Assembly (NCBI RefSeq): GCF_000813745.1
Contig: NZ_JWLC01000013.1
Coordinates: forward strand, 125,498-189,497
Source: Leisingera sp. ANG-M1
Lineage (GTDB): Bacteria > Pseudomonadota > Alphaproteobacteria > Rhodobacterales > Rhodobacteraceae
Length of the DNA: 64,000 nt
Direction: 5' to 3'
Made by a program: the position numbers and the translations under genes. Below, piece after piece: positions 19,236 through 47,341 of this stretch; the stretch's first letter is position 1; each line of letters starts with the position of its first letter. The notes beneath the pieces are model-generated. The model searched no databases and was not told where the DNA came from. It saw only the letters and a list, made by a program, of their open reading frames with translations.

Positions 19236-19281
19236 GCGCCGCCTGCTATCCAGAGAATGGGTGAAAATAGTGGTGGTGAAC

Positions 19282-20118
19282 ATGAGCGCACAAGGCAATG
19301 TGGCGCCCATTATCATCAAGAAGAAAAAATCGGGTGGTGGCGATGGCCATCACGGCGGCGCGTGGAAAGTGGCTTATGCAGACTTCGTGACCGCGATGAT
19401 GGCCTTCTTTTTGCTGATGTGGCTGCTGAACGCGACAACAGAAAAACAACGCAAGGGTCTGGCGGACTACTTCTCGCCATCGATTCCGCTGAGCCGGGTT
19501 TCCGGCGGCGGCAATGGCGCCTTCCAGGGGGACAGCATGTTCACCGAGGAAATCAAGCCGCAGTCCGGCACCGGGGCCACGGATGTCAATCCGGTGGATG
19601 CCCAGCAGGCGCAGGGCGACACCGGGGTTGAAGCCGATGAAAAGCGCGAAGAGGAAGATTCCAAGTTCCGCGCCATCGAGGAGCAGCTTTCCGGGCGCGG
19701 CGGCGAGAGCATGGTGTCTGTCGCGATGTCCCGCCATATCGTGACCCGCGTCACCGATGAAGGCCTGATCATCGAGCTGTTTGCAACTGAGAACGCTCCG
19801 CTGTTTGAAGACGGGGAAGCGGAGCCGACTGCCCTGTTCCGGGATCTGGTCAGGATGATTGCCCGGGTTTCCGAAGGGGTAGAAAGCAATGCGGCCATTG
19901 GCGGCCATATCCGGTCGCATCCGGTTGTGCTGGCGAGAAACCCTGTTTGGGAATTGTCTCACACCAGGGCGGACAAGACCCGCGTGCTGCTCGAATCGGG
20001 CGGGCTGGCAGCGCGGCGGATTCACCGGGTGACCGGTCATGCCGACCGCAAGCTGGCTGTCGCGAATCCGATGGCGGCCCGCAACAACCGGATCGAAATC
20101 ATCCTTTTGCGCGAATAA
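19282..20118 (+). CDS. motB: Flagellar motor stator protein MotB
   Basis: Stator subunit that anchors MotA to peptidoglycan and carries the proton path. From ATG 19282 (MSAQGNVAP) the protein has 278 residues; an in-frame GTG at 19261 is possible but less family-like. One transmembrane helix (about 36-52) follows the conserved proton-binding Asp D34 in AYADFVTAMMAFFLLMWLL. The C-terminal OmpA-like peptidoglycan-binding domain ends with ADRKLAVANPMAARNNRIEI. Unlike most genomes it is not next to motA, which lies 11 kb away at 30.7 kb. Confidence 0.95.
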   Translation: MSAQGNVAPIIIKKKKSGGGDGHHGGAWKVAYADFVTAMMAFFLLMWLLNATTEKQRKGLADYFSPSIPLSRVSGGGNGAFQGDSMFTEEIKPQSGTGATDVNPVDAQQAQGDTGVEADEKREEEDSKFRAIEEQLSGRGGESMVSVAMSRHIVTRVTDEGLIIELFATENAPLFEDGEAEPTALFRDLVRMIARVSEGVESNAAIGGHIRSHPVVLARNPVWELSHTRADKTRVLLESGGLAARRIHRVTGHADRKLAVANPMAARNNRIEIILLRE

Positions 20119-26620: not shown

Positions 26621-27212
26621 ACTGGCTGTCCTCTTTGGCGTGATAGGTAAAGGCTTCAATTGAGTCCTGAATCGACTCCAGCAGCGCATCGCAGTTGATT
26701 TCGCACTCGGAACTGCCAATGCGCAGATAGGCCTGGCCTGGTGTCAGGGCACCGTCTTCCTGCACCGTGACCGGTACCGAAAAATTCTCCGGCAGCAGGT
26801 TCCGCACCGTGGCGCCTTCGCCGGGGGAAACCACGATCCGCATCGGCTGATCGGTCTGCCCCTTGGCCAATTCGGCAAGCTGATCAACGATGTGATGGCC
26901 AAAGGAAGCGGCCATTGCATCGGGCAGGATAGCGCTGGTCAGAACCTTGAACATGGGGTCCAGCGAATCAAGCAGCTGGCTTTGCGCCTCGTGGTAGGTA
27001 AAGCTGAGATCCTCCAGGGAATTGGCGAGTTCGGCGGAGATCCGGCTGGTCTCCTGATCCTTGGCTGTCACCGCATCATCCCATCCGGCGCTGTAGCCCT
27101 TTTCAAAGGATTCCAGGCGCTGTTCTTCTATGACTTCCTCGGAGACGGCAGGCACGGCCGGTTCTGCCGGGGTGCTGAACCCGAAGTCTTCCAGCAAATG
27201 GGCAATTGTCAT
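26613..27212 (-). CDS. fliH: FliH-like export ATPase regulator
   Basis: Likely negative regulator and docking partner of the export ATPase FliI, which is encoded 16 kb away at 43.5 kb. The 199-residue protein has no membrane helix. It has an acidic N-terminus, a central helical or coiled region (about 35-95) containing FEKGYSAGWDDA, and a C-terminal part with LRIGSSECEINCDALLESI typical of the FliH/YscL family. One-base overlap with the fliF stop, eight-base overlap with fliN. The call rests on position as well as sequence. Confidence 0.8.
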   Translation of the reverse strand: MTIAHLLEDFGFSTPAEPAVPAVSEEVIEEQRLESFEKGYSAGWDDAVTAKDQETSRISAELANSLEDLSFTYHEAQSQLLDSLDPMFKVLTSAILPDAMAASFGHHIVDQLAELAKGQTDQPMRIVVSPGEGATVRNLLPENFSVPVTVQEDGALTPGQAYLRIGSSECEINCDALLESIQDSIEAFTYHAKEDSQYG

Positions 27213-28882
27213 CAGGCCTGCTCCTTATTCTCTTCCAGCCAGCCGCGCAGGATCTGGACGGTTTCCTCCTGCCGTTCGCCGATCAGGTTGCGTAGGCGGT
27301 CGACCGGATCGTCCGAGCCGCCGCCCAGTGCTCCCAGGCCAGCAGCGCCCATCATGTCGCCCGCACCCATGGTGGGAAGGCCGCCCATCGGTTCAAACTG
27401 GCCGTCGCCGCTGTCGATTTCGCCGTCCAGCGCGAGGCCTGCACCCAGATCCGGTGCCGTCATGAAGCCGCCGTCGCCGCCGGGGCCGGGCAGGCCGGGC
27501 AGCCCGCCGTCGTCCGGCCCAGGCAGGGCAGCAACCGGCGTTGCCTGATTCGACAGGATCGGACGCACCACGAACAGGCCCAGGATCAGGCTGACAATGG
27601 CCAGCGCTGCAATCTGAATCAGCGACATCGCGTCAAAATAGAGGTTGTCCATGAAGGAGGACGACGCCACAGACCCTTGCGGCTCCACGGCCGGCAGTTC
27701 CATTGACTTGAGGGTGATTACGTCGCCGCGCTCTGCGTCAAAGCCGACAGCGGCAGAGATCAGCTCGCGCATGGCAGCCAGCTCCTCTTCCGGCCGGGGC
27801 TGGAAAACAGTTTCGCCGGCATCATTAGTGGCAGCGGTTCCGTTCACAAGCACCGCAACGGTCAGGCGCTTGATGGCACCAGGGCCGCGGACGATTTCTT
27901 TTTCGGTTTCCGAGATCTCATAGTTGATCCGCTCCCGGGTCGCGCTGGTGTTTGCCTTGGAACCCTGGCCGGAGGCCGCATCGCCATCGGGGATATTGGA
28001 GGCCACGGTCACTTCGCCGGACTGGTTGCTGGAAGAATCGGCACGTTCCTCCACATCGGTGCTGACCGCGACGCGGCTTTTCGGATCCACTCGCTTCTCG
28101 CGGATCGACTCAGTGTCGGTGACGGTTTCAACACTGACTTCAACCACGGCATTGCCCTGGCCGACGCGGGCTTCGACCAGCCGCATGACCCGTTCGCGAA
28201 TCGTCTGCGAGCGGTCGTCTGTCCCGGCCCCGGCCGCGGCGGTTGCATCGGTTGAACCAATCAGCGCGCCATTGGCATCGATCACTGCGACATTCTCAAC
28301 TGCAAGGCCGGTAACGGCGGAGGCAATCAGAAAGCGGATTGCATTGGCCTGCGGCGGTGTGATCGGCGAGCCCATCGGCACAATCGAAACCGATGCGGTG
28401 GGTTCAACCGTCCGCTGGAAAGGATTCGAGCCGGTGTTGGCGATATGCACCCGCGCCTGGCTGACATGCGGGCTGGCGACGATGGTGCGGGCCAGTTCGC
28501 CTTCCTTGGCGCGCCAGTAGGCTGCATCAAACATCTGCGATGTTGTGCCAAAGCCGCTGAGCGAATCGAGGAGCTCGTAGCCCTTGCCGCCATTAGCGGG
28601 CAGGCCTTCGCTGGCCAGCGTCATCCGCAGTTCGTCACGCCGCGTTGACGGCACGTAGATCGAGCCGCCGCGTACTTCATACTGTGTGCCGCGCTGTTCC
28701 AGCGCCCGCACCACATCCCCAGCCGAACCGCTTTCCAGCCCGGCGTAGAGCAGAGTCATTGTTGGCTTGCTTGCCACATGGGACATCGCGAAAACGCTGA
28801 GAATCATGATCACCGTGGCACCCACTGCAATCACGCGCTTGCGCATGTCCATTTCTGCCCAGACATTCTTGATCTGCTGCAC
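27212..28882 (-). CDS. fliF: Flagellar MS-ring protein FliF
   Basis: Inner-membrane MS ring on which the flagellum is built. I place the start at GTG 28880-28882 (VQQIKNVWAEMD), which has GGAGG five bases upstream; an ATG at 28921 would add 13 non-conserved residues. 556 residues: first transmembrane helix about 18-38, secretin-like ring modules with EGLPANGGKGYELLDS, and a second helix about 430-452 (ALAIVSLILGLFVVRPIL). A Gly/Pro-rich stretch precedes a C-terminal tail with DPVDRLRNLIGERQEETVQILRGWL, where FliG would bind. First gene of the minus-strand operon. Confidence 0.95.
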   Translation of the reverse strand: MQQIKNVWAEMDMRKRVIAVGATVIMILSVFAMSHVASKPTMTLLYAGLESGSAGDVVRALEQRGTQYEVRGGSIYVPSTRRDELRMTLASEGLPANGGKGYELLDSLSGFGTTSQMFDAAYWRAKEGELARTIVASPHVSQARVHIANTGSNPFQRTVEPTASVSIVPMGSPITPPQANAIRFLIASAVTGLAVENVAVIDANGALIGSTDATAAAGAGTDDRSQTIRERVMRLVEARVGQGNAVVEVSVETVTDTESIREKRVDPKSRVAVSTDVEERADSSSNQSGEVTVASNIPDGDAASGQGSKANTSATRERINYEISETEKEIVRGPGAIKRLTVAVLVNGTAATNDAGETVFQPRPEEELAAMRELISAAVGFDAERGDVITLKSMELPAVEPQGSVASSSFMDNLYFDAMSLIQIAALAIVSLILGLFVVRPILSNQATPVAALPGPDDGGLPGLPGPGGDGGFMTAPDLGAGLALDGEIDSGDGQFEPMGGLPTMGAGDMMGAAGLGALGGGSDDPVDRLRNLIGERQEETVQILRGWLEENKEQA

Positions 28883-28940
28883 ATTAACCTCCGTCGCACC
28901 GGCGTTCTGTCCGGCGTGCAACCTTTTTGACGGATCGGCC

Positions 28941-28955
28941 TTAACATTCGGTTAG
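28941..28955. promoter_or_regulatory. CtrA-like box between divergent fliF and fliL
   Basis: TTAA (28941-28944), 7 bases, TTAG (28952-28955): one mismatch to the CtrA consensus, 47 bases from the fliL start and about 60 from the fliF start, so it could serve both directions. Confidence 0.6.
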
Positions 28956-29535: not shown

Positions 29536-29982
29536 ATGGACATTATTGCTGATATCCTGCTTGCGGCCGGAGCGCTGGGCGCCGGATTCTATTGCCTGGT
29601 GCTGTCGCGCCGGCTGAAACGCTTCAATGACCTGGAAAAAGGCGTAGGCGGTGCGGTGGCCGTGCTGTCCGCCCAGGTGGATGATCTGAACAAGTCGCTG
29701 CAAGCGGCGCAGCAGGTGTCGGACGGCTCCAGCAAGGCGCTGCAGCAGCTGACCGGCCGCGCCGAATCGGTGGCGCAGCGGCTGGAACTGATGATGGCCT
29801 CGATGCACGACATACCCGAGGCTGCAGCCGCAGCTCCGGCGGCGCAGGCCGGCTCTGAAGACGAAGCGATGGCGGCGGCCTATGAAGCCGATTCGCAGCC
29901 CGCAGCGGACGAGGCGGAAGAAGCCAAACCTTCGGGGCTGATGTTCGTGCGCCACAACCGCAGCCAGAACCGGGTGGCGTGA
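29536..29982 (+). CDS. Bitopic coiled-coil protein downstream of fliL (flagellar accessory)
   Basis: Not confidently named. The 148-residue protein has one N-terminal transmembrane helix (about 4-24, MDIIADILLAAGALGAGFY) and a charged stop-transfer segment SRRLKRF. A coiled coil follows (about 35-90, with LSAQVDDLNKSLQAAQQV and GRAESVAQRLELM), then an Ala/Glu-rich tail ending in basic HNRSQNRVA. It has a perfect AGGAGG ribosome site, sits between fliL and the MotE-like gene and overlaps the latter by four bases. Position and layout recall PflI/MotF-type bitopic motor proteins of other alphaproteobacteria; that link is inference. Confidence 0.7.
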   Translation: MDIIADILLAAGALGAGFYCLVLSRRLKRFNDLEKGVGGAVAVLSAQVDDLNKSLQAAQQVSDGSSKALQQLTGRAESVAQRLELMMASMHDIPEAAAAAPAAQAGSEDEAMAAAYEADSQPAADEAEEAKPSGLMFVRHNRSQNRVA

Positions 29983-30596
29983 TGGCGAAGGGAGCGAAGA
30001 AATCCAAGCGCTTGCGGCGCGGCGGCACGCTGATGATGCTGGCGGTTCTGCTGATGGGCTCCGCCGCGGTGCGGCTGGGCCTTGAGGCCGGACCGGCGAT
30101 CGCCCGTGAAGTCGCGAGTCTGCAGCAGCCGGGCGGCGGGGAGATGGAGCACAAGGGGGAGACCCCCATGAGCAAAATGCCCTCCTCGGCGGAATTGCAA
30201 ACGATGCTGGCTGCCTTTCAGGAGCGGGAGAAGGCTCTGGCCGCCCGCGAGGCGGAACTTCAGGACCGGTTGAAAGCGCTGGAAATTGCCGATCAGGCGA
30301 TCGAGCAGAAGCTGGCGGCATTGCAGGAAGCCGAGGAGAAGCTGCGGGCAACCCTGGCTTTGGCCGATGGCGCGACCGAGGCGGATGTGACCCGGCTGAC
30401 AACGGTTTACGAGCAGATGAAGCCCAAGGAGGCCGCGGCCTTGTTCGAGGAAATGGATCCCGGCTTTGCTGCGGGTTTCCTCGCCCGGATGCAGCCAGAG
30501 GCAGCGGCGGGAATCATGGCGGGCCTGAGCCCGGAAGCCGCCTATACCATCAGCGTGGTTCTGGCTGGCCGCAACGGGGCGGTGCCCAAGGAGTGA
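29979..30596 (+). CDS. MotE-like protein (MgtE-N-type domain), motor accessory
   Basis: 205 residues: a basic N-terminus, one hydrophobic helix (about 15-33) that could be a signal anchor, a coiled coil (about 70-125, ALAAREAELQDRLKALE) and a C-terminal helical domain (about 130-198, VYEQMKPKEAAALFEEMDP then MAGLSPEAAYTISVVL) of the MgtE N-terminal type. In Sinorhizobium MotE has this layout and acts as periplasmic chaperone of MotC. The MgtE channel itself is excluded, as there are no pore helices. ATGA overlap with the upstream gene and 78 bases before motA support a motor role. Confidence 0.75.
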   Translation: MMAKGAKKSKRLRRGGTLMMLAVLLMGSAAVRLGLEAGPAIAREVASLQQPGGGEMEHKGETPMSKMPSSAELQTMLAAFQEREKALAAREAELQDRLKALEIADQAIEQKLAALQEAEEKLRATLALADGATEADVTRLTTVYEQMKPKEAAALFEEMDPGFAAGFLARMQPEAAAGIMAGLSPEAAYTISVVLAGRNGAVPKE

Positions 30597-30611
30597 CTTG
30601 GGCGCGCGGGC

Positions 30612-30626
30612 TTAGTCTTTCCTTAG
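30612..30626 (+). promoter_or_regulatory. CtrA-like box upstream of motA
   Basis: TTAG (30612-30615), 7 bases, TTAG (30623-30626): two mismatches to TTAA-N7-TTAA, 49 bases before the motA start and within a short AT-rich gap. Confidence 0.45.
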
Positions 30627-30674
30627 GAAGACTCGCCTAATCTTATAAAAACCAATGGAATTCGGAGTGGACCT

Positions 30675-31544
30675 ATGATCGGGATTGTAGGCATTGCGGT
30701 GATCTTTGCCATGGTGTTCGGCGGATATCTTCTGGCCGGCGGCAAGATGGGGATTATTCTTAAATCGCTGCCGTTTGAGATGATGATGATTGGCGGCGCT
30801 GCGGTCGGGGCCTTCTTGCTTGGCAACGACATGGGCGGTGTCAAACACACGGTCAAGGACGTCGGCAAGGTCTTCAAAGGCCCGAAATGGAAGCCGGATG
30901 ACTACCGCGACCTCCTGTGCCTGCTGTTTGCCCTGATCCGCATTGCGCGGGCCAATCCGGTCGAAGTGGAACAGCATATTGAGGACCCGGAAAACTCGTC
31001 TGTTTTCAATAAGTACCCCAAGATCCTGGCCGACAAGGAAGCGGTGAACCTGATCTGCGACACCATGCGCTCGGCGTCGATGAACTATGACGATCCGCAT
31101 CAGGTGGAGGAAGTTCTGGAGAAGCGCATGGAGGCCAACCTGCATCACGCGCTGCATTCCAGCCACGCGCTGCAGACTATGGCGGACGGCCTTCCGGCGC
31201 TTGGGATTGTTGCGGCGGTGCTTGGCGTGATCAAAACCATGGCCTCGATCGACCAGCCGCCGGAGGTGCTGGGTAAAATGATCGGCGGCGCGCTTGTGGG
31301 CACCTTCCTTGGCGTGTTCCTGGCCTACGGTCTTGTCGCCCCATTTGCCGGCAAGGTGAAAGCCGTGATCGAAGAGGATGCGCATTTCTACCAGCTGATC
31401 CGCGAAGTGCTGGTGGCCAATCTGCACAACCATGCCGCTGCGATTTGCATCGAAGTCGGCCGTCAAAATACTCCGTCTCATATCCGCCCCGGTTTCTCGG
31501 AGCTTGAAGAGGCGCTCAAATCGGTGAAACAGGACGCAGCATGA
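30675..31544 (+). CDS. motA: Flagellar motor stator protein MotA
   Basis: Proton-channel stator subunit, four membrane helices. 289 residues with MotA hallmarks: an N-terminal helix (GIAVIFAMVFGGYLLAGG) and a large cytoplasmic loop with charged residues for FliG contact. The conserved Pro lies in GLPALGIVAAVLGVIKTM, and GGALVGTFLGVFLAYGLVAPF follows. Alphaproteobacterial length. Overlaps the following large periplasmic protein gene by four bases, so the two are coupled. motB is separate at 19.3 kb. Confidence 0.96.
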   Translation: MIGIVGIAVIFAMVFGGYLLAGGKMGIILKSLPFEMMMIGGAAVGAFLLGNDMGGVKHTVKDVGKVFKGPKWKPDDYRDLLCLLFALIRIARANPVEVEQHIEDPENSSVFNKYPKILADKEAVNLICDTMRSASMNYDDPHQVEEVLEKRMEANLHHALHSSHALQTMADGLPALGIVAAVLGVIKTMASIDQPPEVLGKMIGGALVGTFLGVFLAYGLVAPFAGKVKAVIEEDAHFYQLIREVLVANLHNHAAAICIEVGRQNTPSHIRPGFSELEEALKSVKQDAA

Positions 31545-33991
31545 TCTGGCGCGCACTTGCCACTGCAGCCGCAATTCTGACGGCTGGCGCCGTCTCGGCG
31601 CAGACGATTGTGACCCGCTCGGGTGAGCACAATGGGTTCACGCGCCTGGTCATGCGCCTGCCGGGCGGTGCCGACTGGTCGCTGACGCAAAGCGGTAAAT
31701 CGGCGACGGTGAACATCGATGCGCCGGATGTGGAGTTTGACACCTCCCGGGTGTTCAACCTTATCCCGCGCACACGCCTGCAATCGCTTGGGCAAAACGG
31801 GCCTGGCCAGCCGCTGCGGCTGCAGCTGGGGTGTGAATGCACCGTTACCTCCTATGTACAGGAGGACGGCTATCTGGTTGTCGATATCCGCGATGGCGGG
31901 CTGCCGCCCTCAGAGAATCAATATTCGGTAGGCAGCAGTGTTCTCCCGCTTACGCCGCCGTCTTCGCAAAGCGGCTACCGGTTCAATTTTTCCCAGTCGG
32001 CGGCGGCAGATGCGCGGATGGCGCTGGAGATTGCGGCGGCCATTACCGGTCAGGCCGCTCCGGGACAGACCGTCAAGCCCCAGGATCAGAGCGCTGTGCC
32101 TGATGCTGAGACCGCGGCTGAAGAAGAACCGCCGCAGGAATCTGTGTCCCTGCCTTTAGACGGGAACGGGTTCCCGAAAGACGAAGAAACTGCCGCTGAC
32201 GAGGCAGCTCCAGGGCTTCCGGAAACCGGCATGCTGCTGAACATGGAAGAGACCGAGCGCGCCGCAGTGGTGCGGGAATCGGAACAGCGGCTGCTGCAGC
32301 AGATCGGCAGGGCTGCGAATCAAGGCCTTCTCAGCGTGGCCGCCGATGGGATCCCTGAGGCGGATGATACAGCAGGGCTTGACCCGTTGGGGCGTTCAGA
32401 CAGGCCTTTGAATCCGCTGGATCATATCTCCGTCACCTCCGCAATCGACCGCGAGACCGGGCTGATGGCCGCCTTGTCAGACGGCAGCGGCAAACCGGAT
32501 CACTGCCTGGCAGACCGCGACGTCGCGATCCACAACTGGGGCAATGAACGCCCGTTTGCAGATCAGCTCGGACCGCTGCGCGGAGCGCTTGTCCGGGAGT
32601 TTGACGACGTGAACCCGGCAAGTGTTTATGCGCTGGCGCGGCTCTATCTGTTCTTTGGCTTTGGTGCCGAGGCCCGGTCCATTCTGACAATTCTGCCTCC
32701 TGAAGAGCAGGCCAGCCAGGAAGCCGCGCTTCTGGAAGCTATGGCCATGATGATGGATGGCGCCGTCCTCCCGGTTAACAATCCGTTCTCCGGGCAGCAG
32801 GGCTGCGAAGGCCATGGCGCGTTCTGGGGTGCCTTGGCCGACGGAACCGTTAAGAAAAGCGCAAATACCGATGCCATGCAGCAGGCCTTCTCGAAGATGC
32901 CGACACATTTGCGGGTGCATCTGGGGCCTCGGTTGAGCCAGATGTTTGCTGAAGCCGGAGAGCATCATGTTGCCGAGGCGGTGCTGCGGGCGGTGGACCG
33001 GACCGGGGTTGAGGATGTGCCGGAAATCAACCTGGCTGAGGCCGCGATCGCCGAGCTGAAGGGTGACACTGAAAAAGTGGCCGAAGAACTTACCAGCGAG
33101 GTTGCCGAGCGGACAGGTAACGCTCCTGCGGCGCTGATTGATCTGGTCGCTTTGTCGGTCAAGGAGCGCAAGGCGCTGTCGCCGGATGTTCCGGATCTGA
33201 TCGCTTCCTACGAGCTGGAAAACCGCGAGACCGAGCTGGGCGCGCAGCTGCGTCAGGCGCAGGTCGCCTCGCTGGCGCTGATGGGGCAGTTCCACGACGC
33301 GTTCCAGGAACTGAAAAGCCTGACCGAGCGTGACGGGCCCAAGGCACGGACTGCTGCAATCGAGCCGCTGATGCTGCTTTTGACGGAACGTGCGGATGAT
33401 GTGACTTTCTTGCAATATGCGCTGGTGTTCGCGGGGCAGACTACGGCGGCTGAAGCTGCCCCGGTTGCGGTCCCGGTGGCCCGCCGCCTGCTGGACCTTG
33501 GGTTTGCCGAGCAAGCAGAGAGCCTTCTGACCAAGCTTTCGCTGGAGCCGGAGGATGAAACCCGCCGCCTGATGATGGCTGAGGCCGCGCTGGTAATGGA
33601 CAAACCGCACCGGGCGCTTGTTGAACTGATGGGCCTGGAAGGATCTGATGCCAACCGGATCCGGGCCGAGGCGCTGTGGCGCAATGGCGAATATGACCGG
33701 GCGGGTGAGTATCTATTGGCCGAGGATGAGGCCAATGCAGCAGCCCGCGGGTTCTGGCATTCCGAGAACCTTGAAGCCATCGAAGCCATTGAAGATGGCG
33801 AGGACGCTCAGTTCGGAGCGGTTGCTTCGGTCACCACACAGATTGGCGAAACGGCGCAGGATCCTGAAGGGCTGACACCGCTGGCCCATGCACGGGCGCT
33901 GGTCGAAAGCAGCGAAGGAACCAGAGGCGGTATCACCGATTTGCTCAATCAAGTTGGAACCGGCCTGGGCGATACCGAAGAAAGTCAGTGA
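31541..33991 (+). CDS. Large periplasmic repeat protein coupled to motA (flagellar motor accessory)
   Basis: Unrecognised family. 816 residues with a signal peptide (MIWRALATAAAILTAGAVSA, cleavage near residue 20) and a beta-rich N-terminal domain (about 21-125) reminiscent of AMIN-type cell-wall modules. An acidic low-complexity linker follows (about 170-240), then a long helical region (about 340-800) with TPR-like repeats such as YALARLYLFFGFGAEARSIL and RIRAEALWRNGEYDRAGEYL. Translationally coupled to motA (ATGA) and followed by a terminator. It could play the part of MotC or MotK, periplasmic proteins needed for rotation in other alphaproteobacteria; that is inference from position and localisation. 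Confidence 0.7.
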   Translation: MIWRALATAAAILTAGAVSAQTIVTRSGEHNGFTRLVMRLPGGADWSLTQSGKSATVNIDAPDVEFDTSRVFNLIPRTRLQSLGQNGPGQPLRLQLGCECTVTSYVQEDGYLVVDIRDGGLPPSENQYSVGSSVLPLTPPSSQSGYRFNFSQSAAADARMALEIAAAITGQAAPGQTVKPQDQSAVPDAETAAEEEPPQESVSLPLDGNGFPKDEETAADEAAPGLPETGMLLNMEETERAAVVRESEQRLLQQIGRAANQGLLSVAADGIPEADDTAGLDPLGRSDRPLNPLDHISVTSAIDRETGLMAALSDGSGKPDHCLADRDVAIHNWGNERPFADQLGPLRGALVREFDDVNPASVYALARLYLFFGFGAEARSILTILPPEEQASQEAALLEAMAMMMDGAVLPVNNPFSGQQGCEGHGAFWGALADGTVKKSANTDAMQQAFSKMPTHLRVHLGPRLSQMFAEAGEHHVAEAVLRAVDRTGVEDVPEINLAEAAIAELKGDTEKVAEELTSEVAERTGNAPAALIDLVALSVKERKALSPDVPDLIASYELENRETELGAQLRQAQVASLALMGQFHDAFQELKSLTERDGPKARTAAIEPLMLLLTERADDVTFLQYALVFAGQTTAAEAAPVAVPVARRLLDLGFAEQAESLLTKLSLEPEDETRRLMMAEAALVMDKPHRALVELMGLEGSDANRIRAEALWRNGEYDRAGEYLLAEDEANAAARGFWHSENLEAIEAIEDGEDAQFGAVASVTTQIGETAQDPEGLTPLAHARALVESSEGTRGGITDLLNQVGTGLGDTEESQ

Positions 33992-34016
33992 ACAGGCAGC
34001 CTGTTTGCAGCCGTTT

Positions 34017-34045
34017 GGCCGTCCCTTCCGGGGCGGCCTTTGCTT
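34017..34045 (+). terminator. Rho-independent terminator after the motA operon
   Basis: GGCCGTCCC (34017-34025) pairs with GGGGCGGCC (34030-34038), nine pairs with one G-T wobble and loop TTCC, followed by TTTGCTTTT. Confidence 0.85.
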
Positions 34046-34383
34046 TTGATGATAACACTTTGTCAACCGGCGGCCGGTAACGTGAAGACCGGGTGAATCC
34101 TGATTTGGAACGGGCAGAATGCCGGAAAACTATTCAATACCTTGCCTGCAAAGGCTGATTCTGCGTGGATCATGCGCAGAACGCGGGGCTGTGCATTTTG
34201 CCGGTGCGGCCCGAAAACGCTTCAGAACGGTTGCCATTGCTTTGCCTGCTGCGGCGGGGACTGCGCGATACAGGCTGCTGGCCTTTGGGTCTGGCGGCGC
34301 GGCTGATCTGACCCAGGCTCCTGCTCCGGTCCGCTTGCCGCAGGTTCTCCCAATAAGTAACCGCAATACATGGGGCCCGACCT
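34046..34383. other. Intergenic region upstream of flhA
   Basis: About 340 bases with no gene I can support. One 90-codon frame (34119-34391) overlaps the flhA start and has no family features. No TTAA-N7-TTAA box was found here, unlike other flagellar upstream regions. It probably holds the flhA promoter. Confidence 0.5.
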
Positions 34384-46528: not shown

Positions 46529-47341
46529 TTAACGGAACAGCTGCTGCAAGGTCGATGGCGCCGAGTTGGCGATGGTCAGCGACTGCACTGCCAGCTGCTG
46601 CTGGGTCTGCAGGGCTTTCAACCGGGCCGACGCTTCTTCCATGTTGGTGTCGGTCATGGTGCTGACACCGGACTTCAGCGAGTCGGTCAGTTTCGACACG
46701 AAGTCGTTCTGGTCGCTCAGGCGGCTGCTGTCCGCACCCAGCTGTGCTGCCGAGTCGATGGCGAATGCGAGCATCGCTTCGATTTCCGACAGAACGGTGG
46801 TTGCGTTAGTGTTGGTGAGCGCCGGGATGCTCGTCGTGTCCATGTTGGCACCGGTGTCGATCGCGGTCACCGTGATGGTGTCGCTGCCGTCCAGGCGCAG
46901 GCCGCCCAGAACGTCCAGCTGCGGAGTGACGCTGTTGTCGAGCAGGTTTGCGCCGTTGAAGGTGGCGGAACCGATGATCGAATTGATCTGGTCACGTTTT
47001 TTGTCCAGGTCGGCCTCGATCTTGTCGTGGTCCACGTTCTGGGAAACACCTGCAACGGTCAGCTCGCGCATCTCTTTCAGGGTTTCAACGATCTGTTCCA
47101 TACCGGAGGAAGCAACCGCAACCGTGGCTTCACCAAAGTCCAGGGCGTCGGAGACGGACTGATACGCCTGAATGTCCGATTCCATGGATTTGGAGATGGC
47201 CCAGACAGCGGAGTTGTCCTTCGCCATGCCGACCTCTTTACCGGTCGAGATCTGGTTCTGGGTTTCTTCCAGGTTGTTGTTCACAGACTTCAGGGTCTGC
47301 AGAGCAACCATTGCGCCATTGTTTGTCAGAATGCTGGTCAT
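46529..47341 (-). CDS. fliC: Flagellin
   Basis: Filament subunit exported by the flagellar system. 270 residues, a short flagellin with the D0/D1 helices and little variable domain. The N-terminus is TSILTNNGAMVALQTLKSVN, with a QISTGKEVGMAKDN motif near residue 30-44; the C-terminus is ARLKALQTQQQLAVQSLTIA then STLQQLFR. Ribosome site AAGGA seven bases upstream of the ATG. Only one flagellin gene is in the window. A long, structured leader and a CtrA-like box precede it. Confidence 0.96.
   Translation of the reverse strand: MTSILTNNGAMVALQTLKSVNNNLEETQNQISTGKEVGMAKDNSAVWAISKSMESDIQAYQSVSDALDFGEATVAVASSGMEQIVETLKEMRELTVAGVSQNVDHDKIEADLDKKRDQINSIIGSATFNGANLLDNSVTPQLDVLGGLRLDGSDTITVTAIDTGANMDTTSIPALTNTNATTVLSEIEAMLAFAIDSAAQLGADSSRLSDQNDFVSKLTDSLKSGVSTMTDTNMEEASARLKALQTQQQLAVQSLTIANSAPSTLQQLFR

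Follow-up and report, generated by a model that had tools for sequence, protein, structure and literature searches.

Two described flagellar motor operons closely resemble the one studied here. In Cereibacter sphaeroides, Velez-Gonzalez et al. 2024 (PMC10954123) describe the Fla2 operon fliL2-pflI-motE-motA2-motK, and MotE and MotK are reported there to be periplasmic, to be required for rotation, to localise to the flagellated pole, and to bind each other and MotB2. In Phaeobacter inhibens, where this flagellum type goes by the name fla1-type, Tomasch et al. 2025 (PMC12363192) report the gene order fliF, fliL, CP2, CP3, motA, CP4, sltF, flhA, with CP2, CP3 and CP4 essential for swimming and the mutants complemented; the paper finds CP1-4 in Rhodobacterales only, there confined to clusters of the fla1-type, describes what the CP proteins do as enigmatic, and nowhere in its main text mentions PflI, MotE or MotK. 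MotE has been grouped with FlgY, a protein of the E-ring, and MotK with PflA, a protein of the spokes (Zhu et al. 2026, PMC13023049; Feng et al. 2025, PMC11870540); a cage is, according to the latter, reported only in Campylobacterota. We here analyse a cassette at positions 29536-33991 of a stretch of 64,000 nucleotides from Leisingera sp. ANG-M1 (contig NZ_JWLC01000013.1), which as a whole is called the window below. The cassette contains a pflI-like gene, motE, motA and motK, and we consider it together with motB of the same cluster. Because of the gene order, and by that order alone, CP2 is equated with the pflI-like gene, CP3 with motE and CP4 with motK, which joins the literature on CP2-CP4 of P. 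inhibens with that on PflI-MotE-MotK of C. sphaeroides.

Stators are usually assumed to be kept from spinning by the binding of MotB to peptidoglycan. In a 2025 survey of MotAB (PMC12505986), the OmpA-like domain that binds the wall is listed as one of the conserved traits of flagella, and a review (PMC7990780) mentions speculation, unaccompanied by binding studies, about a further anchoring region. The genes of the cassette are already known; what is new is that, across the clade with this scaffold, MotB has lost its peptidoglycan pocket. No report on such a loss was found in the open-licence PMC literature as judged by titles and the starts of abstracts. With a probability of about 0.75, we regard the cassette as the motor operon of the vertically inherited flagellum of Rhodobacterales, in which MotE would form the E-ring, MotK the spoke and MotA-MotB the stator, the scaffold recruiting and holding the stators.

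The peptidoglycan pocket of MotB

The motB gene sits 9.4 kb upstream of the cassette and gives the sole MotB_plug match in the genome; its product is presumed to be the stator partner of MotA. The OmpA match of this MotB (18.1 bits) lies under the cut-off of 27.2. The gene and the codons at the pocket positions are:

19261..20118, plus strand: motB, in the same cluster as the cassette; MotB_plug 72.5 bits; OmpA-like domain without the peptidoglycan-pocket residues
19909..19914, plus strand: codons I217 and R218 of MotB, at the T-D position of wall-binding MotBs
19945..19947, plus strand: codon V229 of MotB, at the position of the pocket Asn of wall-binding MotBs
20086..20088, plus strand: codon N276 of MotB, at the position of the first Arg of N-R-R in wall-binding MotBs

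The window MotB reads G-H-I-R instead of G-H-T-D, with R218 replacing the Asp that contacts diaminopimelate. The T, the N and the N-R-R Arg are taken by us to belong to the same diaminopimelate pocket. In OmpA of Acinetobacter baumannii, Asp271 and Arg286 are reported to link to diaminopimelate (PMC10385648). Misalignment of the pocket was rejected as an explanation, the register being set by H216, W230, R236 and Salmonella MotB.

The survey covered 149 genomes of the family (Rhodobacteraceae). From 136 MotB_plug places listed, 130 MotBs were fetched, five fla3-like or second copies and one fragment of 126 amino acids (aa) being omitted; four fla3-like MotBs missed by the motif script were read separately, and two (G022 and G114) were too truncated to read. 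The labels fla2-like and fla3-like are our own and were assigned on three features of the clusters read, namely a distant MotE, the type of MotA and the order of the genes; clusters labelled fla2-like are horizontally transferred and often plasmid-borne. For other families of the class, 29 MotB loci were taken from the best-scoring places of 116 genomes, and 28 of them were read.

In the 100 MotK-carrying genomes whose MotB was examined, the Asp was substituted in 92, present in five and in an alignment gap in three, two of these three MotBs being truncated and the third (G058) being without the entire loop. The Asp is accordingly missing from 93 of the 98 readable MotBs (92 substituted plus G058). 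Its replacements among the 92 are 49 R, 17 A, 7 P and others including Q, S and H. The T, the N, the N-R-R Arg and the Arg of LSxxRA are invariant in 38 of 38 Asp-bearing alphaproteobacterial MotBs, and the 92 Asp-less ones retain the T in 23 cases, the N in two and the N-R-R Arg in two. All four residues (T, D, N and R) are lost in 65 of the 92, the window MotB included. The Asp is found in all eight MotK-less fla2-like MotBs, in all four fla3-like ones and in 24 of the 28 from other families of the class. A further 18 MotBs come from MotK-negative genomes, 17 without and one with the Asp. Nine of these genomes are without FlhA, and in all seven of the surroundings fetched motB lies within a remnant that contains flgE; the rest of the 18 are from genomes that are fragmented in assembly or carry a second flagellar type, except that of G023, which is a real counterexample.

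As judged from its sequence, the OmpA-like domain of MotB is not decaying, because W230 (91 of 92), R236 (90), N275 (92), R277 (92) and also R241 are kept, and R256 (88), R274 (88), E279 (91) and R284 (90) are near-invariant; R263 occurs in 81 of the 92, and MotBs of the stem lineages already carry several residues of the R256/R274/E279/R284 type. The four near-invariant residues would equally suit another explanation, namely that MotB is itself still anchored to the wall through a re-specified pocket and that MotE-MotK only position or unplug the stator. Arg236 and the N-x-R motif (92 of 92) would also fit, as would the fact that Arg is the commonest replacement of the Asp. However, the position of the Asp appears to be free, given the variety of its replacements; the N and the Arg are lost alongside it in nearly all cases and the T in three quarters; G058, which carries MotK, is without the whole loop; and in the same genome all eight of the further OmpA-domain proteins that were examined (from 11 matched) retain the Asp, within GH[TA]D. 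We consider a re-specified pocket unlikely. Altered peptidoglycan as the cause of the change in MotB was rejected, since those eight proteins, albeit a profile-biased set, retain the motif.

In a MotB tree of 151 rows, made by a quick method, the state of the Asp changes at least four times, and the loss in the family is a single event above stem lineages that have both MotK and the Asp. For MotB of C. sphaeroides and P. inhibens, we infer the state of the pocket from their clade.

Some MotBs stand apart from this pattern. Those without the Asp outside the family (L260 and L261 from G181 and G309, L262 from G211, L286 from G288) are possible independent losses. In nine of 24 genomes FlhA is absent and motB kept (L303, L305-L308, L312 and L314 among them). 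The motB remnants adjoin flgE, some with flgK-flgL-flgI also present and others with a gene homologous to that at 46529-47341 of the window, a putative flagellin by gene order; in Paracoccus aminophilus pAMI5 (L320, 8001-13809) there is an island motB-flgE-flgK-x-flgI. It is odd that a stator subunit and a hook gene are kept without an export apparatus.

The operon and its products

The operon and its flanking features are:

29536..29982, plus strand: pflI-like gene (CP2 of P. inhibens by order), 148 aa; DUF6468 below cut-off, hydropathy, gene order
29982..30596, plus strand: motE (CP3 by order), start ATG 29982 or GTG 29979; MgtE_N, model, Foldseek
30675..31544, plus strand: motA, stator A subunit of the long MotA1 type, 289 aa; TIGR03818 360.7 bits, cut-off 303.8
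31541..33991, plus strand: motK (CP4 by order), 816 aa; model, matches to 4bin and 9hmf_K, conserved order
31601..31891, plus strand: AMIN domain of MotK with the near-invariant CxC (C98, C100); model, 4bin match, alignment
28941..28955, plus strand: CtrA-type site TTAACATTCGGTTAG, 5' of fliL; one mismatch to TTAA-N7-TTAA
28969..29526, plus strand: fliL, first gene of the operon; Pfam FliL 52.9 bits, cut-off 24.6
27212..28921, minus strand: fliF (MS-ring), divergent from the operon; YscJ_FliF 160.2 bits
34384..36477, plus strand: flhA, the downstream boundary; FHIPEP 748 bits

An initial annotation, made from the sequence alone, had placed four open reading frames (ORFs) with overlapping junctions between fliL and flhA, and both the coordinates and the protein lengths (148, 205 or, if ATG is the start, 204, 289 and 816 aa) proved correct. 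So did its identification of MotA, which scores over the TIGR03818 cut-off. The stop of pflI overlaps the start of motE, for which ATG at 29982 is likelier than GTG at 29979, and motA and motK overlap by 4 nt (ATGA, 31541-31544). These junctions were compared in the best 80 of 165 MotK-bearing loci from a search of the genome contigs with MotK, which represent the nearest relatives and not the whole family (top-scoring: Leisingera sp. ANG-Vp, 84% identity). Of 79 loci in which it could be measured, 71 have a motA/motK overlap of exactly 4 nt; for pflI and motE, 73 of 77 loci have an overlap of 1 or 4 nt; and the order fliL-pflI-motE-motA-motK was found in all loci that were long enough. In more distant members of the family motE is separable from motK, lying on another contig in G020 and at a distance of about 19-30 kb in G067 and G053, both genes being retained. 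A site with one mismatch to TTAA-N7-TTAA, which we take as the CtrA-type consensus, precedes fliL in 74 of 74 relatives versus 19 of 1480 random windows from the same loci. The cluster is a CtrA-type flagellar cluster. Two side observations concern motK and its downstream flank: the gap between motK and flhA is larger in loci such as L201, and motK of Pseudophaeobacter leonis 306 (L222, 10092-11624) is apparently interrupted, with an open frame of only 511 codons and the flanking genes present.

The PflI-like protein, named from the gene order in PMC10954123, matched DUF6468 at 20.3 bits, under the cut-off of 26.9. Its hydropathy peak at residues 3-21 indicates a single transmembrane helix near the N-terminus, in agreement with the initial description of a bitopic coiled-coil protein, and RRLKR follows directly. 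By the positive-inside rule the coiled coil is predicted to be cytoplasmic, and for this reason the protein is placed outside the periplasmic module. The initial annotation had suggested that the whole set serves as a periplasmic module supporting the stator; this stands for MotE and MotK, for which it had already been published (PMC10954123), and on this prediction fails for the PflI-like protein.

MotE matched Pfam MgtE_N at 26.9 bits (cut-off 25.9), in keeping with its earlier designation as a MotE-like, MgtE-N-type protein, and has an N-terminal signal sequence as judged by eye. In the model (pLDDT 79), a long helix at residues 69-145 forms a coiled coil, followed by four short helices, the ARM-like/MgtE_N domain lying at about residues 130-200. 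Foldseek against the PDB ranked the FliF-YlxF chain 9a67_B first (E 1.8e-3), followed by FliG and MgtE. A second structural comparison gave YlxF Z 10.8 over 71 residues, tied with the FliG middle domain (Z 10.9). MotE shows features of the E-ring family, namely a coiled coil, then a C-terminal MgtE_N domain, and a gene within a flagellar cluster that is retained along with flagella. No cysteine occurs in the window MotE, which rules out a disulfide-linked dimer like that of MotE in C. sphaeroides and S. meliloti; 70 of 77 relatives are likewise free of Cys, and in one of the seven others (L234) the Cys is at position 16, inside the signal sequence. The cysteine was not taken as family-defining.

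For MotK, which had been described as a secreted 816-residue protein with a beta-rich domain and helical repeats, a signal peptide was recognised by eye and the confident model (mean pLDDT 82) contains both parts. It consists of a beta domain (21-117), a linker of low confidence, a helical superhelix (about 320-740) and C-terminal helices. Structure prediction, which the initial annotation had proposed, thereby yielded the AMIN plus TPR superhelix make-up of MotK. The AMIN domain (model 16-119) matched that of AmiC (4bin) with Z 11.7 and a root-mean-square deviation of 3.3 over 103 aligned residues, and was not seen by the Pfam scan despite this match. TPR_19 reached 26.9 bits (cut-off 25), and chains with TPR-like repeats dominate the list of structural matches. 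Third among 350,542 PDB chains in Foldseek was 9hmf_K (E 6.9e-5), a chain of 773 residues from the periplasmic scaffold of the Campylobacter jejuni flagellum, which we take to be PflA. The TM-scores of this pair (0.17/0.18) are low, as one may expect when superhelices are bent, and no sequence match accompanies them; the MotK profile found no chain at E <= 1 among the PDB sequences. The conserved cysteines of MotK are C98-x-C100 and C322 with C422. Because the relative L035 has lost C98 and C100 together and retains C322 and C422, the sequences suggest two disulfides.

The AMIN domain of MotK might contact peptidoglycan, or it might be a protein-binding module, as in PflA, without such contact. 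The nearest solved AMIN match of MotK is AmiC, which speaks for the wall. The AMIN domain of AmiC binds the cell wall. The AMIN domain is also called peptidoglycan-binding in PMC10954123, whereas deletion of residues 16-168 of C. jejuni PflA is reported to abolish PflB binding (PMC12222027). We regard a purely protein-binding domain as quite possible, if somewhat short of an even chance.

Distribution of MotK and its relatives

In the 149 genomes, FlgI was found in 120, MotK in 103, MotE in 109 and a long MotA over cut-off in 110. FlgI is present in all 103 MotK genomes, and MotK in none of the 29 genomes without FlgI, which rules out that MotK is kept in non-flagellated relatives and makes the survey of co-occurrence suggested by the initial annotation favourable to it; the Fisher tests of co-occurrence take genomes as independent of kinship. 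A 30-row MotK profile found nothing in the 46 MotK-negative genomes (0 of 46), and the same profile does detect matches in other genomes. MotE and the long MotA occur together in 108 genomes, MotA alone in two and MotE alone in one. Of the 109 MotE genomes, 107 have FlgI; the other two (G028 and G113) carry FlhA, so that FlgI is probably absent from the assembly rather than from the genome. MotK without MotE was seen in three genomes: in G040 the contig stops just past motK, in G061 motA begins at the contig end, and G056 has no such explanation.

Seventeen genomes with FlgI are without MotK; ten of these have neither a long MotA nor a MotE match, and seven have both. Six of the seven are fla2-like, and the seventh, G023, has a fla1-like cluster in which an unrelated ORF of 235 aa with a possible internal signal sequence follows motA in the position of motK (L043, 8626-9333). 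In fla2-like clusters (L042, 257-2095, minus strand; L049, 3639-5510, minus strand; L322, 28836-30641), a protein of 601-624 aa is encoded between flgE and flgF. Two such proteins (613 and 624 aa) were scanned and have TPR and, by eye, a signal sequence; Pfam found no AMIN in them, which is weak evidence as Pfam misses the AMIN of the window MotK too, and MotC as the partner was considered and not adopted. The protein is a candidate for a MotC/PflA-like partner of the distant MotE of these clusters.

Outside the family the MotK profile matched in 84 genomes, out of 86 with matches among 190 of the class. Some of the matches fall in frames of about 400 residues and probably represent amidases, whereas the top scores mostly belong to ORFs of about 1000-1400 residues. 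Two of these large ORFs were scanned and have Pfam AMIN or AMIN-like domains over cut-off and TPR under cut-off. In at least 17 of 35 checked genomes, no more than 2 kb separates a large ORF from a MotB_plug match (by eye, among the matches listed), and this match differs from the best MotB_plug match of the genome; FlgI is found in 33 of the 35, often on the same contig and 9-17 kb away. In L291, L292, L300 and L301, AMIN-TPR genes of about 1000-1400 aa stand directly after a shorter MotB-like gene near flagellar genes. The large genes of other alphaproteobacterial families are a possible source of MotK. Pairs of an AMIN-TPR gene and a MotB-like gene are often found close to flagellar genes in alphaproteobacteria, which disfavours an origin of MotK within one order. 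The presence of MotK-like AMIN-TPR genes outside Rhodobacterales contrasts with the view of the CP genes as specific to the order.

A proposed scaffold for the stator and its described counterparts

In the proposed mechanism, MotE would be an E-ring protein of the FlgY/YlxF type whose dimers probably lie around the MS-ring (FliF) and mark the site of the motor. MotK would serve as a PflA-like spoke that connects MotE with the stator through its TPR superhelix and touches peptidoglycan or a partner protein with the AMIN domain at its N-terminus. By binding MotE and MotB, MotK would complete a scaffold that recruits and holds MotA-MotB stators. The PflI-like protein may lie in the inner membrane, with its coiled coil in the cytoplasm, and be required for assembling or placing the flagellum. 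Because MotB of this clade has lost the residues that hold diaminopimelate, the anchoring load might be borne more by the scaffold than by MotB. The immotility of mutants and the binding between MotE, MotK and MotB2 were established by others; the operon, domains, folds, co-occurrence and loss of the MotB pocket come from the present analysis. The positions of ring and spoke in this motor, and the transfer of the anchor, we infer. We propose only tentatively, and at clearly less than even odds, that the OmpA-like domain of MotB has become a docking domain and that MotK plus MotE tether the stator and so keep it from spinning. The second anchor (MotK) would then have come first and the loss of the pocket afterwards, because the stem lineages carry MotK yet retain the pocket of MotB.

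Several observations weigh against this picture. The loss of the Asp happened a single time in the MotB tree, at the root of the large Rhodobacteraceae clade, so the link with MotK is without independent replication. Five MotK-bearing stem lineages (G004, G015, G017, G083 and G101) retain the Asp, as does Paroceanicella profunda, and G023 has an Asp-less MotB and no detectable MotK. Four of the 28 MotBs from other families (G181, G309, G211 and G288) are without the Asp. The motif is itself part of the OmpA profile with which the eight OmpA controls were picked, so that proteins with the Asp were favoured. The second pocket residue, Arg236 of LSxxRA, persists in 90 of 92, and some wall binding may therefore persist. 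PflA of C. jejuni is reported to bind PflB through its beta domain and linker (PMC12222027). Finally, the CP2 and CP3 mutants of P. inhibens had no visible flagella (few wild-type cells had any), which suggests a role in assembly (PMC12363192).

This last point leads to the possibility that all three proteins (MotE, MotK and the PflI-like one) act as chaperones in assembly or export, with immotility resulting from failed assembly. The CP2 and CP3 mutants showed no flagella by electron microscopy and exported FlgH only (PMC12363192), and MotE was originally described as a chaperone of MotC (PMC13023049). On the other hand, motE mutants of C. sphaeroides are, according to a table in PMC13023049, flagellated but non-motile; MotE and MotK are needed for rotation and found at the flagellated pole (PMC10954123); the CP4 mutant of P. 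inhibens still exported flagellin and hook proteins; and wild-type cells with flagella were few in that microscopy (PMC12363192). We hold assembly factors to be an improbable explanation. A clade with a pocket-less MotB, some members of which are known swimmers, would be a natural test of the idea that MotB does the anchoring, and the genetics for such a test is at hand in P. inhibens and C. sphaeroides.

The module had been thought of as possibly an alternative one; following the argument of PMC13023049 and PMC11870540, it is instead a version of the widespread E-ring/spoke scaffold of the FlgY-PflA type. The Fla2 operon of C. sphaeroides is like that of the window in gene order, in its overlapping or close junctions, in domain make-up and in the upstream CtrA site, but MotK has 652 aa there versus 816 aa in the window, and the cysteine of the MotE disulfide dimer is absent from the window MotE. 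The fla1-type cluster of P. inhibens, a close studied relative, has the same order before flhA; it differs in having sltF between CP4 and flhA, whereas the ORF listing of the window contains no sltF-sized ORF at 33992-34383, between motK and flhA. Bacillus subtilis YlxF with FliF (9a67) is the best PDB match of MotE in Foldseek, but 9a67 is an integrative model and FliG middle domains match MotE about equally (Z 10.9). Sinorhizobium meliloti likewise pairs a member of the MotE family with a periplasmic TPR partner, MotC, which is described as having no AMIN domain (PMC13023049) and is likened to MotK by description, not by sequence. The likeness to FlgY and PflA of C. jejuni is one of fold types: MotE has the coiled coil plus ARM-like domain of FlgY, and the AMIN domain plus TPR superhelix of MotK may correspond to PflA, although at the level of sequence MotK matches no PDB chain at E <= 1.

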